Made by a program: the position numbers and the translations under genes. A stretch of 33,828 nt of DNA from Candidatus Gottesmanbacteria bacterium (GTDB taxonomy: Bacteria > Patescibacteriota > Microgenomatia > JACOXO01): positions 1 to 33,828 of the forward strand of contig JACOXO010000038.1 in assembly GCA_016182365.1 (NCBI GenBank), written 5' to 3'. The notes under the pieces are model-generated. The model worked only from the letters and a program-made list of their open reading frames with translations. It did not search any database and was not told the DNA's origin. The stretch's first letter is position 1. Every line of letters begins with the position of its first letter. Below are positions 5,063 to 27,461 of the stretch, one piece after another.

Positions 5063-5407
5063 CTATTCTCCATTATCAAAGCTCCATAAATGTTTCTCCA
5101 AATTCACATGAGTCTTGTCCTTAAAAGTTATACCTTCCACCTCTAGTCTTCTCCTTTGTTCTTTAGCTCCGTCGAAGGCCCGCCGGCCAATCGCTTGCGC
5201 TCCAGGCGCTTGCGGGCCGGCAAAATTGGTAGCCAGCCTCCCATTTCTGTCAACAACCCTATGGCATGGAGTACTAGTTGATTTATTAGCATGGAGTGCC
5301 CAGCCCACAGTTCTAGGATTTGTATTTAAAACTCTGGCAATTTCCCCATAAGTAGTTACTTTACCCGAGGGAATTTGATGTATTATTCTGTGAACTTCTT
5401 GAAATAT
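5063..5407 (-). CDS. MGMT/ATL-family DNA alkyl-base repair protein with a palindromic insert and no normal start codon
   Basis: The reading frame encodes the C-terminal, DNA-binding domain of O6-methylguanine methyltransferase. SGKVTTYGEIARVL is the recognition-helix region and PCHRVV holds the methyl-accepting Cys. Single-domain members of about 100-115 residues are common. The domain begins at about 5407 with an ATA codon; the frame is open back to 5419 but has no ATG, GTG or TTG until GTG 5308, which would remove the conserved first third. Either a rare ATA/ATT start is used or the start was lost. A 42-base GC-rich palindrome (5177-5218) inserts 14 residues between NFA and FDGAKEQRRR without breaking the frame. 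The gene follows the 5416 gene closely. Confidence 0.75.
   Translation of the reverse strand: MFQEVHRIIHQIPSGKVTTYGEIARVLNTNPRTVGWALHANKSTSTPCHRVVDRNGRLATNFAGPQAPGAQAIGRRAFDGAKEQRRRLEVEGITFKDKTHVNLEKHLWSFDNGE
5177..5218. repeat. 42-bp GC-rich palindromic element in frame in the MGMT-family gene
   Basis: The ends are perfect 7-bp inverted repeats, GGCCCGC (5177-5183) and GCGGGCC (5212-5218). The inside holds a direct repeat of CGCTTGCG. The base composition is strikingly GC-rich compared with the AT-rich gene around it. The length is a multiple of three and adds 14 Gly/Ala/Pro/Arg-rich residues to a loop that is otherwise short in the family. Confidence 0.75.
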
Positions 5408-5415
5408 AGAATTAT

Positions 5416-5697
5416 TTATTTACTTTCCCCTTTCCGCTTCTTTAACACTCCCATCTCAGTCAGCTTCCACATAAATAATGCGCCTTTGCGGTTTGATCCT
5501 CTGGCGTCTTTGCAATAAGAAAGAGCTCTTTCCAATACAGCCCTGGGGTAGTTTTTGGCCATTTTTATATACAATGATTTGTGGGAATAGTCATTAAGCT
5601 GCTCTGATAAATATATTCCATACGCCTGGTATTCACGGGAGATATATTTATCTTCCAAGGGGTTAAATTTAATTAGGATATCCTGGATTGACTTCAT
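5416..5697 (-). CDS. Conserved hypothetical protein, helical and basic
   Basis: A 93-residue protein without a family I can name. It is predicted helical, with a Lys/Arg-rich second half (AKNYPRAVLERALSYCKDAR) and a C-terminal tail LKKRKGESK. That tail is encoded by an AAGCGG/AAAGGG word repeat (about 5421-5446), so the natural end was probably altered by the repeat. It sits between pth and the MGMT-family gene on the same strand. A role in nucleic-acid binding is possible from its charge, but this is a guess. Confidence 0.6.
   Translation of the reverse strand: MKSIQDILIKFNPLEDKYISREYQAYGIYLSEQLNDYSHKSLYIKMAKNYPRAVLERALSYCKDARGSNRKGALFMWKLTEMGVLKKRKGESK
5421..5446. repeat. AAGCGG/AAAGGG word repeat at the 3' end of the 5416 gene
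   Basis: On the minus strand it reads GAAGCGG, AAAGGGG and AAAG in succession, the same words as in the ligase gene (15407-15437), trmD (20076-20106) and the spacer at 2748-2786. It encodes the charged C-terminus just before the stop. Confidence 0.45.
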
Positions 5698-7020: not shown

Positions 7021-7062
7021 TCCCGACGACTTTGTGTCGGGATCCCGACCTTAGCGTCGGGA
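7021..7062. repeat. Compound GC-rich hairpin repeat, 42-bp copy
   Basis: Two successive hairpins, TCCCGAC...GTCGGGA twice, with loops containing CTTTG and CTTAGC. The whole unit starts with TCCCGAC and ends with GTCGGGA. The first 24 and last about 16 bases are the same as those of the longer copy at 23775-23855, in the same orientation and with a T-run before each. The right end supplies the last codons (Ser-Arg-Arg) and stop of the DUF4870-like gene. Confidence 0.75.
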
Positions 7063-18359: not shown

Positions 18360-18650
18360 ATGAGAACAATAAAAGTATCTGCTACCGAAGCGAGAAATAA
18401 CCTGTTCACACTTTTAAATCAGGTGCTTTATGAAAATACCAAAGTGATCATCACTAAAGCTGACGCTAAAGGAGAAGTTGTGTTAATTGCTAAAGAAGAG
18501 AAGGATAAAGAAATTAAGAAGAGAACTAGCATACTTAATGAAACTTTTGGAACGTTTAAAAATGTCTCTTTATCTGCCTATACTGACAATCGATTAAGAG
18601 GAAAGAGAGCAAAAGAATATCTTAATAAAGTCAGAAAAGGTAATGTCTAA
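18360..18650 (+). CDS. Phd/YefM-type antitoxin, module 2
   Basis: 96 residues with the family N-terminus (IKVSATEARNNLFTLLNQVL) and a strand-turn VIITKADAKGEVVLIAKEE, the Phd/YefM DNA-binding fold. The charged C-terminal part would wrap the toxin. It overlaps the PIN toxin gene by eight bases. The operon is autoregulated by analogy; two TGTACA sites lie in the promoter. Confidence 0.85.
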   Translation: MRTIKVSATEARNNLFTLLNQVLYENTKVIITKADAKGEVVLIAKEEKDKEIKKRTSILNETFGTFKNVSLSAYTDNRLRGKRAKEYLNKVRKGNV

Positions 18651-19044
18651 TATTCAAAGAGTTATTATTGATACTTCAATTCTTATTGATCATTTGCGGG
18701 GAACTTCAGAAGACTTTAAACTACTCGATAACTTACGTATTCAAGGAAAAATAGAACTTCTTATTCCTGATATTGTTATTTGCGAACTTTTTGCAGGAAA
18801 AGAAGCAAGGAAAAAGAAAGTGCAAGAAAATTTTAATAAACTTATTGAGGATCTTTCTGTAACTGGTTTAACAATTAACTCAGCCAAAATAGCTGGTAAA
18901 CTAATCCGTACATATACTCAAATTCCTGACCCATTTGATTTTCTTATTGCTGCAGTTGCTATAGAACAAAATGCATACATAGCAACACACAATATAAAAC
19001 ATTTTAAACAAATTCCACAAATTAAGTTATTAAAGATTTCATAA
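18643..19044 (+). CDS. PIN-domain toxin (VapC-like), module 2
   Basis: 133 residues with the PIN acidic residues Asp10 (IIDTS), Glu48 (ICELF) and Asp99 (PFDFLIAAVA), and THNIKHF at the last strand where many VapC proteins have T-x-N. It is a predicted Mg-dependent ribonuclease neutralised by the upstream Phd-type protein. Its 3' end overlaps the convergent nnrD gene by 23 bases. Confidence 0.88.
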   Translation: MSNIQRVIIDTSILIDHLRGTSEDFKLLDNLRIQGKIELLIPDIVICELFAGKEARKKKVQENFNKLIEDLSVTGLTINSAKIAGKLIRTYTQIPDPFDFLIAAVAIEQNAYIATHNIKHFKQIPQIKLLKIS

Positions 19045-23774: not shown

Positions 23775-23855
23775 TCCCGACGACTTTGTGTCGGGATCCT
23801 CCGACGCTTTGGTGCGGAGTCCGACAGAATCGTCGGACCGATCTTAGCGTCGGGA
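23775..23855. repeat. Compound GC-rich hairpin repeat, 81-bp copy
   Basis: It shares the first 24 and last about 16 bases with the copy at 7021-7062 but has a longer middle. The middle adds two further hairpins (CTCCGAC...GCGGAG and GTCCGAC...GTCGGAC), a net gain of 39 bases. It starts after a T-run. Its right end encodes Ser-Arg-Arg and the stop codon of the PIN gene at 23844. The remaining gap to pyrH holds the pyrH -10 and no other feature. Confidence 0.75.
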
Positions 23856-24314
23856 CTTTTTTAGATAATCTCTGTCTTTCCCCACAGTGGTGTTTATAGG
23901 ATACCCATCAATTCCAAACCTTTTAAAACCTCTCTTTTTAAAATGGACGTCAAAAGAGTATACCCAGTTAATTGAATATTCTTTTAAAATAGCAAAATTT
24001 AAGCAATCAGAATAAGAAACGCTTTTTGATTTAATAAATTTAAAAATTTCTTCTCCCTTCGATATTAAATCTTCATTTGGATGAATAATGATATATTTAC
24101 CGCTTCTTAATTCCCTAAGTAAATTTAAAGAATGATTTTTACTGACTCTTTGACTTATTATAGTTAAAACTTCAAGAAGTACATTTGTAGACAAAAAAGG
24201 CTGAAGTTTATAAGATAACATTTTATTCCAATATTCCTTAACTGAAACATGAAGAATATCTGAGGAATCATGTAAGGCGATTAATAAATCAGTATCGTAG
24301 AAAATCTTAGTCAT
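23844..24314 (-). CDS. PIN-domain toxin (VapC-like) with a tail copied from the pyrE 3' end, module 3
   Basis: 156 residues. PIN acidic residues are Asp7 (YDTDLL), Glu48 (LLEVL), Asp103 (YSDCLNFA) and Asp122 (SFDVHF). A normal PIN protein would end near KRGFKRFGI (about 127-135). The extra tail PINTTVGKDRDYL is the PyrE C-terminus (PINTTVGKGREYL), 11 of 13 residues identical and about 33 of 39 bases. The last residues KKSRR come from the adjacent palindromic repeat. Its start overlaps the antitoxin stop by four bases. The tail's effect on activity is unknown. Confidence 0.85.
   Translation of the reverse strand: MTKIFYDTDLLIALHDSSDILHVSVKEYWNKMLSYKLQPFLSTNVLLEVLTIISQRVSKNHSLNLLRELRSGKYIIIHPNEDLISKGEEIFKFIKSKSVSYSDCLNFAILKEYSINWVYSFDVHFKKRGFKRFGIDGYPINTTVGKDRDYLKKSRR
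23864..23902 (-). repeat. Second, diverged copy of the pyrE 3' end
   Basis: Direct repeat of 24610-24648 (the end of pyrE). About 33 of 39 bases match, and four of the six differences are silent in the shared reading frame. The two copies flank the whole RHH/PIN module 3, as expected if the module entered at the pyrE 3' end. Confidence 0.75.
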
Positions 24315-24553
24315 TTACGCCCTTTACCATAGAGATAGTAGTCATGTCTTCTGCTTAAATCGCCAATATTGCTTTTGGGTGCTTTTTTTGCAAGCTCAAG
24401 CATCGATTCAACCCAATCAGTTTTTGTGTTTTCTACTTCTTTCCTAAGGAGTTTCCTAATTACAGCAGCCATCGTCTTCTTTTCACTTTTGGCTTTAAGT
24501 TTTAACAAATCAACTACCTCTTTTGGAAGATAAATATTTGTTCTGACTAACAT
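24311..24553 (-). CDS. Ribbon-helix-helix antitoxin, module 3
   Basis: 80 residues with an N-terminal ribbon-helix-helix (RTNIYLPKEVVDLLKLKAKS, then KTMAAVIRKLLRKEV), the DNA-binding fold of VapB/CopG-type antitoxins, and a C-terminal toxin-binding region. It overlaps the toxin gene by four bases. Two TGATGTAT direct repeats overlap the promoter -10 and are likely operator sites. Confidence 0.85.
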   Translation of the reverse strand: MLVRTNIYLPKEVVDLLKLKAKSEKKTMAAVIRKLLRKEVENTKTDWVESMLELAKKAPKSNIGDLSRRHDYYLYGKGRK

Positions 24554-25313: not shown

Positions 25314-26177
25314 TTAATAGACTTCTTTTATAGCTTTATGTTTAAGTGTACCCTTAAGTTCCATAAGATCAATAGGTTTCCTATATTTATTAATCTCTTC
25401 TTTTAATTTAATTGCTTCATCTTTAGGATTATCTGCAAAAATTATACTACGGGAAGCACTGATGATTATTCCTTCACCCTTATTGTTTTGACCCGATTTC
25501 ACTGTTTTTTCAACGTCTCCTCCTTGAACACCAATTCCCGGCACCAGAAACCAGATATTATTCCCGACAATTTCTCTTACTCTTTTAAGCTCAGTAGGAT
25601 AAGTTGCGCCTACAACTAATAAACAATTATTGTTGGCATCCCACTCTTTTGCCACTTTATAAGCTAAGTGTTCATATAACGGAATATTGTTGGTTTTAAG
25701 ATCCTGGAGTTCTCCTGCTCCTGGGTTTGAAGTCCGGCAAAGAATAATTGCACCTTTATCTTTTCTGTTAAGAAATGGCATTAAAGCTTCTTTCCCAAGA
25801 TATGGATGTAATGTAACTGCGTCAACACATAAATAATCATAGATGTATTCCACATAGCCATTATTGGTATTGCCTATATCCCCTCTTTTTGCATCCAAAA
25901 TTATAGGAATGTCAGCATATTTAGATTTTATATAATCAACTGTTTTTTTTAGCTCGCGAATTCCGTCAATTCCTTTACTTTCATAAAAAGCGCTGTTGGG
26001 TTTGTAAGCGCAGACAAATGTATGTGTTTGGTCAATTATGTTTTTATTAAATTCAAAAAATGGTCCGCCAACTGGCCCCGATTCAATCGGGGCTGGCGGA
26101 TTAACAGGATCAAGTCCTACACACAAAAGCGAGTTATTCTTATTAACTGCTTTTTTTAATTTATCAACAAATGTCAT
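25314..26177 (-). CDS. pyrF: Orotidine-5'-phosphate decarboxylase (type 2) with a palindromic insert
   Basis: 287 residues. The catalytic motif DAKRGDIGNT, VGATYPTELKRVREIVG and LVPGIGVQGGD identify PyrF type 2, which decarboxylates OMP to UMP. Between GLDP (21-24) and FFEFN (40-44), residues NPPAPIESGPVGGP are encoded by a 37-base palindrome (26064-26100), a loop that relatives fill with unrelated or fewer residues. The frame and catalytic residues are intact. About 20 C-terminal residues (IDLMELKGTLKHKAIKEVY) also seem additional. The start overlaps the HAD gene stop by four bases. Confidence 0.92.
   Translation of the reverse strand: MTFVDKLKKAVNKNNSLLCVGLDPVNPPAPIESGPVGGPFFEFNKNIIDQTHTFVCAYKPNSAFYESKGIDGIRELKKTVDYIKSKYADIPIILDAKRGDIGNTNNGYVEYIYDYLCVDAVTLHPYLGKEALMPFLNRKDKGAIILCRTSNPGAGELQDLKTNNIPLYEHLAYKVAKEWDANNNCLLVVGATYPTELKRVREIVGNNIWFLVPGIGVQGGDVEKTVKSGQNNKGEGIIISASRSIIFADNPKDEAIKLKEEINKYRKPIDLMELKGTLKHKAIKEVY
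26064..26100. repeat. 37-bp nested palindrome in frame in pyrF
   Basis: Outer 7-bp inverted ends TCCGCCA (26064-26070) and TGGCGGA (26094-26100) enclose an inner perfect GCCCCGATT-C-AATCGGGGC. A four-base bulge lies on one side. The inner core CCCGATTNAATCGGG is shared with the palindrome at 19810-19828. It is GC-rich in an AT-rich gene. Confidence 0.75.
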
Positions 26178-26812
26178 TTTGTAATTATAGGTAATATATC
26201 AATTATATCGCGGATAATAAAATCGGGGCTGCTTGCCTTTACTCTGTCTTTATGAAATCCATAGGCTGCCGCAATGGTCTTCACTTTTGCATTTTTTCCT
26301 GCTTCGATATCAAATTTGGTATCTCCCACCATAACTGCATTCTGGGATTTAATACCTAAATTGTTTAAAGCTTTTAATAAAGGTTCCGGATGTGGTTTAT
26401 GATTTTTTACATCTTCTGAGGATATTAAAAGATCAAAATATTCATAAATGTTAGCCAGTTCCAGAGTCTTTTGAGAAGTTCGTTTTGAACGGGAAGTTAC
26501 AGCAGCAATTTTCAATCCTGCTTTTTTTATTTTTCTCAATGCCTTAATTGTATTTGGGAAAGGTTTTGATAAGTGTAGATTTTTAACTTGAAAAGAACGG
26601 TGAGTCTCGCAATACTCAACTACATTGTCAGAATTAGATAGAATTTTGTAAGTTTTTTCTAGCTGTTGTCCAACAATTTTTAATACCTGTGTTTTGGTAA
26701 TGGTTGGAAGATTATGCTTTTTTAATGTATATTTAAATGCTTTATATATAAATTCTTCTGTATCAAGTAGTGTTCCATCAACGTCAAAAAGCACAGCCTT
26801 AAATTTTTTCAT
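26174..26812 (-). CDS. HAD-family phosphatase, phosphoglycolate phosphatase-like
   Basis: 212 residues with HAD motif I FDVDGTLLDT (nucleophile Asp10, acid/base Asp12), motif II VTSRSKRTSQ, Lys in HKPHPEP, and motif IV MVGDTKFDIEAG. The helical cap between motifs I and II puts it in the PGP/beta-phosphoglucomutase-like subgroup. The substrate is unknown. Placed immediately before pyrF (four-base overlap) it could be a nucleotide phosphatase, but that is inference. Its start overlaps the PIN toxin stop by four bases. Confidence 0.85.
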   Translation of the reverse strand: MKKFKAVLFDVDGTLLDTEEFIYKAFKYTLKKHNLPTITKTQVLKIVGQQLEKTYKILSNSDNVVEYCETHRSFQVKNLHLSKPFPNTIKALRKIKKAGLKIAAVTSRSKRTSQKTLELANIYEYFDLLISSEDVKNHKPHPEPLLKALNNLGIKSQNAVMVGDTKFDIEAGKNAKVKTIAAAYGFHKDRVKASSPDFIIRDIIDILPIITK

Positions 26813-27216
26813 ACTGCGGAGATATGTTTTACAAAGGAGAATTTGGTTTTCTGGATAAATTTATCGTCAGCCGTAATAAGAAAAGTCTTGTGCTTTTTTG
26901 CAACAACAGCATAAAGCATATCATAGACGGTTGTATTGTATTTCTTTGCTAAATTTAGAGTTTCAAAAATATCCTCTCTACTAGACTCATAACATATTAA
27001 ACGACTTTCATAAAAAAATTCTAAATGTTTCTTTATGGTTAGGAGTGTACTATGAGAGTTGGTTACCAAATAGTTGGAAACTTCAATATAAAAAAGAGAA
27101 GGGATAATGATTTTTTGGCGACCACTAAAATGATTTCTAAGAACGATCAAAGATTGCTGTCTATATTCCTCGTTTTTCTTAATCAGTTTAATACCAACAG
27201 AAGCGTCAATAATCAT
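26809..27216 (-). CDS. PIN-domain toxin (VapC-like), module 4
   Basis: 135 residues. PIN acidic residues are Asp4 (IIDAS), Glu45 (YIEVSNYL), Asp99 (VYDMLYAVVA) and Asp117/118 (ITADDKF). It overlaps the antitoxin gene upstream and the HAD gene downstream by four bases each, so it is embedded in the pyrimidine series and probably shares a transcript with pyrF and pyrE. Confidence 0.86.
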   Translation of the reverse strand: MIIDASVGIKLIKKNEEYRQQSLIVLRNHFSGRQKIIIPSLFYIEVSNYLVTNSHSTLLTIKKHLEFFYESRLICYESSREDIFETLNLAKKYNTTVYDMLYAVVAKKHKTFLITADDKFIQKTKFSFVKHISAV

Positions 27217-27461
27217 TGTTCGTAACGCATTTCAATGAGTTTCTCGGTAAAATTAATTCCAGGATTCTGACGTGCGGTTTCTTTTGCTAATTTATCCAAT
27301 TCCTTCATAATTGTCTTAACGTCTCTTTGCTTTTTTTTACTTTTTCTAGTAAATTTATCACGCACCAAAGCAGCAACGCTCTTTCTCTTTTTGGCTGCTT
27401 CTATTTTAATCTCCATATAGAGATCTTCAGGAAATCTAATATTGGTAGTCACCCAGTTCAT
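27213..27461 (-). CDS. Ribbon-helix-helix antitoxin, module 4
   Basis: 82 residues: TTNIRFPEDLYMEIKIEAAK and RKSVAALVRDKF form a ribbon-helix-helix, followed by a charged toxin-binding tail. It overlaps the toxin gene by four bases. A perfect AGTACAATTGTACT palindrome lies in its promoter and overlaps the -10, a strong candidate operator. Confidence 0.85.
   Translation of the reverse strand: MNWVTTNIRFPEDLYMEIKIEAAKKRKSVAALVRDKFTRKSKKKQRDVKTIMKELDKLAKETARQNPGINFTEKLIEMRYEQ

Follow-up and report, generated by a model that had tools for sequence, protein, structure and literature searches.

Introduction

Rickettsia palindromic elements (RPEs) are palindromic repeats that lie in frame within unrelated protein genes of small-genome bacteria (Ogata et al. 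2000, 2002, cited in PMC10969869); the RPEs first reported, in Rickettsia, are ~150 bp long. Translated palindromes, seen at first as a peculiarity of Rickettsia, were later recognized among the REPs of some other bacteria. GTAG- and CGTC-tagged REPs are palindromes of 20-40 bp that are mostly intergenic, with some translated, for example in uvrA and tRNA synthetase genes, and in two Xanthomonas recB genes distinct REPs occupy roughly one position (Di Nocera et al. 2013, PMC3733652). REP/RAYT systems and REPINs comprise short hairpin repeats that have multiplied in some genomes (PMC3686654).

Here we analysed a 33,828-nucleotide stretch of Candidatus Gottesmanbacteria DNA (contig JACOXO010000038.1; hereafter the window), in which a first-pass annotation had reported a 42-bp palindrome splitting an MGMT domain in frame. 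We conclude that this insert very probably belongs to a mobile, REP-like palindromic element dispersed through the ultra-small Patescibacteria, which lands between and inside genes and whose retained intragenic copies keep the reading frame and would be translated as loops.

Results

A GC-rich insert in an MGMT-like gene

The reported segment, GGCCCGCCGGCCAATCGCTTGCGCTCCAGGCGCTTGCGGGCC, carries perfect 7-bp inverted ends at 5177-5183 and 5212-5218 that can be read directly from the DNA (Table 1). Its unusual G/C richness is equally plain, at 33 of 42 bases (79%) versus ~35% for the genome. Read on the minus strand, the segment adds the 14 residues GPQAPGAQAIGRRA at the junction of NFA and FDGAKEQ. 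The pattern GGCCCGC-N(10-40)-GCGGGCC has a single match in the window, none in any of 100 shuffles and no other across the whole genome, and we found no further genomic copy of the 42-mer with up to three mismatches. Because GCC stands at both ends, the boundaries of the insert can slide; family alignment shifts the element proper by 2 bp, the empty site then being TTTTG^CCTTCG, and the covariance-model match extends over 5175-5225 (67 bits). No target-site duplication is visible at the window element beyond the ambiguous GCC. The element as a whole is an imperfect nested hairpin rather than a perfect palindrome. Its fold is unremarkable for its own composition (z -1.1 and -1.25), and folding energy was rejected as a criterion, as it does not discriminate among such GC-rich DNA.

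Table 1 Coordinates of the insert, its host gene and a hairpin of another family within the window.
Feature	Position	Strand	Details and basis
Single-domain O6-alkylguanine-DNA alkyltransferase-like gene, PF01035 with PCHRV active-site motif	5063..5419	-	Pfam, PDB MGMT/ATL matches
Reported segment with 7-bp inverted ends	5177..5218		Sequence
Family element proper	5179..5220	-	Core of 42 bp, CCGGCCCGC...GGCCGGCGGG; the 5177-5218 insertion after a 2-bp slide; alignment to copies of four further Patescibacteria, and core length rule
Consensus nested hairpin	5183..5220	-	Consensus structure; compensatory changes over 55 aligned matches
Outer hairpin stem	5215-5220 with 5183-5188		
Inner hairpin stem	5212-5214 with 5192-5194; 5206-5210 with 5196-5200		
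Tandem double hairpin CCCGAC...GTCGGG, other family, not part of the element	7021..7062		Sequence; intergenic

The Pfam PF01035 match spans the insert (E=1.4e-19). The host gene has an open frame that runs from an ATA (5417-5419), overlapping the upstream gene's stop codon (5416-5418), to its own stop at 5063-5065. This ATA is apparently the start, no ATG, GTG or TTG lying ahead of the conserved domain; because a standard start codon is lacking, the function of the gene is uncertain, and it may be decaying. A decaying pseudogene would not select against an insertion, which would then be in frame by luck. Both the unusual start and the position of most family copies outside genes fit this account, but the frame is otherwise open, PCHRV and the conserved residues are retained, and elsewhere the family is kept in frame in normally essential genes, so we regard the account as unlikely. 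An AlphaFold model of the host protein, built with 27 sequences, has a mean pLDDT of 81.6, with residues 69-82 (most of the insert) below 50 and most of the domain above 90, suggesting that the 14 residues are probably a flexible, disordered loop of the MGMT-like protein.

The site is empty in relatives

The host gene was recovered in 91 of 110 class relatives, among which the aligned loci provided the empty-site comparison. NFA-F(D/G)GA runs uninterrupted in the aligned class homologues except that of one genome, G030, placing an empty site at the same codon boundary. The check that had been proposed against close relatives thus finds the site empty, and most homologues are without the insert.

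The G030 homologue (L025, 1560-1800) carries a 30-bp insert at exactly the codon boundary used by the window element, and, nearer the start of the gene, a second insert that is also GC-rich and palindromic. The 30-bp insert contains CTTCGCTGAAGCTTCG. We counted 54 occurrences of CTTCGCTRAAGCTTCG in 33 of 110 class genomes versus 0 for the reversed control, and the G030 insert is therefore a member of another dispersed family of repeats. In the gene tree G030 groups with G006 (support 99/99), in which the site is empty, so two separate gains are needed. Two different repeats thus reached one codon boundary independently, in the window and in G030.

A dispersed family across Patescibacteria

Two further genomes of the class hold the element core, differing at 2-3 of 28 bases, and the reversed control gave 0 matches. 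A degenerate 24-base core pattern has four matches in 257 Gb, all of them in Patescibacteria: Collierbacteria, Levybacteria, a Patescibacteria bin and a Parcubacterium. In-frame copies of the core read PPASAWSASDWRAG in a Collierbacteria membrane protein gene and PARTRLERKRLAGG in an Mfd-like protein gene of Parcubacteria. With GPQAPGAQAIGRRA in the window, one DNA unit is read in three frames in three genes, so what spreads is the DNA itself and no protein module. The core pattern had no match in viral contigs, and a plasmid search for the element returned weak, chance-level matches only.

A covariance model built from five copies matched 100 of 374 class genomes at E<=0.01 and, at E<=0.001, further genomes from other classes. 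Five matches lie in the window's own genome. The first-pass annotation had called for a search for other elements there, and the three other copies that we inspected are of the same family; C39 and C4 are inside long open frames and C38 is not. Across the family, copies occur on both strands, in unrelated genes and in intergenic DNA. An ordinary lineage-specific expansion of a protein loop, with no mobile element involved, would agree with an insert that sits in a loop near which other homologues vary slightly. The same DNA is, however, present in unrelated genes of other genomes and in intergenic DNA, on both strands and in different frames, which leaves loop expansion hardly credible.

The family architecture combines near-constant outer arms (CCCGCCTGC / GGCGGGCAGG, represented by CCGGCCCGC / GGCCGGCGGG in the window) with an inner stem that is variable and always paired. 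Over 55 aligned matches, 49 two-sided compensatory cells were counted versus 11.1 in shuffles, with 0 of 500 shuffles as high; fitting of the alignment to the structure biases this count somewhat towards pairing, but sliding the partners abolishes the signal. The core spans about 39-42 bp; for 54 of the 72 copies measured, intergenic ones included, its length is either 39 or 42 bp, a proportion that is not an independent test because the copies share ancestry. In some copies the outer arms are lengthened by complementary flanking bases that differ by copy (TTGG...CCAA in L099, TCAG...CTGA in L098).

Arms extended in this manner, and inner stems that vary while their pairing is kept, are what template switching at a prior quasi-palindrome could produce; each palindrome would then have formed in place, by the one mechanism acting on different templates that had been suggested for this locus. 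Yet different templates could not repeatedly yield a core of 20-28 bases that is shared across families and phylum-level groups. Template switching may polish the arms but leaves dispersal unexplained, and we consider it a very improbable origin of the element.

A second 42-bp segment is of another family

The segment at 7021-7062, with which the insert had been compared, is likewise 42 bp long with 7-bp ends. It consists of two tandem hairpins from a separate family, which recurs elsewhere in the genome. It is not the window element, and the proposed common design and mechanism are not supported. Relatives of CCCGAC...GTCGGG lie at 23776-23795 of the window, L048:17663 and L037:18438. The 20-base hairpin CCCGACGACTTTGTGTCGGG is identical at 7022-7041 and 23776-23795, both intergenic. 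We surveyed palindromes in a 322-kb sample of the genome, in which 42-bp segments with 7-bp inverted ends number 44 versus 35 expected. Among those with GC-rich arms, length 42 accounts for 6 versus an average of <2 per length, and these 6 represent different repeat families. As evidence that 5177 and 7021 are related, the equal length is weak, and it lies within what many palindromes of varied length would yield.

Other features of the window include a 37-bp nested palindrome, TCCGCCA...TGGCGGA, in frame in the N-terminal loop of pyrF (26065-26101). We do not count this palindrome as a second in-frame insertion, the loop of relatives being similar in length; since the pyrF loop does not exceed that of most relatives, the palindrome may have replaced sequence instead of adding to it. 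Four small gene pairs resemble PIN-domain toxin-antitoxin modules, judging from translations only (1975-2614, 18360-19044, 23844-24553 and 26809-27461).

Intragenic copies keep the reading frame

We scored the 120-bp flanks of 93 copies for coding by codon usage, treating each side independently. In 20 copies both flanks were coding in the same frame, which was open through the element. Two had coding flanks on the same strand in different frames (L062, L174), in one the frame shared by the flanks contained a stop (L077) and one had flanks coding on opposite strands. A further 20 had one coding flank and 49 had neither, most copies being intergenic. On inspection, L077 and L174 proved to lie at two-gene junctions and L062 at the 3' end of a gene, and no clear frame-breaking insertion was found among the 93 copies. 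Frame retention was compared with a one-third chance by binomial test (20/22, p=3e-8; 20/23, p=1.6e-7), and loss of frame-breaking insertions is its likely explanation.

Translational bypass elements have been described in yeast mitochondria, and compact GC-rich hairpins in AT-rich genes resemble them. If the segments were transcribed and then removed or skipped, through splicing-like excision or translational bypassing, nothing would be added to the protein. Such skipping, however, needs neither an intact frame nor stop-free copies, and the 20 clear intragenic copies have both; we give it only a very slim chance. Since the retained intragenic copies keep the frame and have no stop in the frame used, they would instead be translated as short extra loops, as judged from open frames rather than from peptides.

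Host proteins of the in-frame copies include TopA, LepA, TrxB, CysS, ArgS, SecD and LeuS, some of which are normally essential. The inserts fall within domains of CysS, ArgS and TopA, and comparison with solved TrxB, LepA and TopA makes extra residues visible at the element. The proteins presumably tolerate the insert loop. The ribosomal protein L1 gene at L104 was rejected as an insertion case, having no clear net insertion relative to solved L1 proteins.

Recent multiplication and a candidate enzyme

The element has clearly multiplied recently in two genomes. G580 contains about 20 near-identical copies (L238-L256), all outside long frames, in AT-rich intergenic surroundings with partly shared flanks (TTTTG...AGATTTGAG), and G272 contains four. 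In multi-copy genomes the flanks lie within short repeats.

Y1 transposase genes are present in 247 of 374 class genomes, comprising 81 of 100 with the element versus 166 of 274 without it (p=2e-4, a value that ignores kinship). A Y1/RAYT gene lies beside the element in 1/21 loci, in 0/30 and in 3/28 partly overlapping loci, and no Y1 transposase was detected in G394, which has 13 element copies. Because adjacency is rare and one multi-copy genome is without Y1, we do not claim a RAYT link. Y1 (RAYT-like) genes are often flanked by near-perfect palindromes of their own, distinct from the element (L142, L144, L145, L149, L156, L159). Many of these genes also hold a palindrome inside the transposase frame, and in L149, L156 and L159 it matches the flanking one.

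Discussion

In favour of our preferred reading, a dispersed REP-like element, we observed the empty sites, one DNA family shared by unrelated genes in different frames, pairing kept by compensatory changes, retention of the frame and, in some genomes, recent multiplication. In the lineage of the window, the element would have inserted between the Ala and Phe codons of a single-domain gene of the MGMT family and added a 14-residue, probably disordered loop. We surmise that copying proceeds via a hairpin or single-stranded intermediate with an enzyme supplied in trans, for which a RAYT/Y1 transposase would be the obvious candidate. The mobilizing enzyme could be sought in multi-copy genomes, G580 for example.

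The presence of copies in genes for topoisomerase, elongation factor 4 and tRNA synthetases, in genomes that are highly reduced, suggests that reduced bacteria commonly gain protein segments from small mobile hairpins. Lineage-specific insertions of 13-14 residues in Patescibacterial proteins may thus be mobile DNA, not adaptations. More tentatively, the family could be a phylum-wide, gene-tolerant selfish palindrome whose length, largely in multiples of three, and mostly open frames suit it to survive in genes, making it a recurrent source of protein loops.

Comparison with known systems

Like the Rickettsia palindromic elements (PMC10969869), the Patescibacterial element occurs in frame in unrelated protein genes; it is set apart by host and by length, with a core of 39-42 bp in place of ~150 bp. 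GTAG/CGTC REPs share its size, its intergenic majority and the translation of some copies, and the two repeats at one site recall Xanthomonas recB. These REPs belong to other taxa, however, and no fixed GTAG/GGAG or CGTC stands beside the Patescibacterial hairpin: GT[AG]G lies <=8 nt from either arm in 8 of 72 copies versus 4.5% of random positions and is not a fixed feature, and CGTC stands at one end in 2 of 72 versus 2.3%. As in REP/RAYT systems and REPINs, the hairpin is multiplied in some genomes, and Y1 transposases with palindromes of their own are present, but the element is rarely beside a Y1 gene, and G394 holds its 13 copies with none detected. With MITEs it has in common that it is short, non-coding and dispersed, with terminal inverted repeats; no clear target-site duplication was seen, given the GCC ambiguity at the window site and the short repeats around copies in multi-copy genomes. 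A literature search, conducted mostly outside subscription journals, returned no paper describing palindromic repeats within Patescibacterial genes, nor was the sequence family found described there. The element resembles RPEs and intragenic REPs but carries neither REP tags nor a consistent RAYT neighbour.
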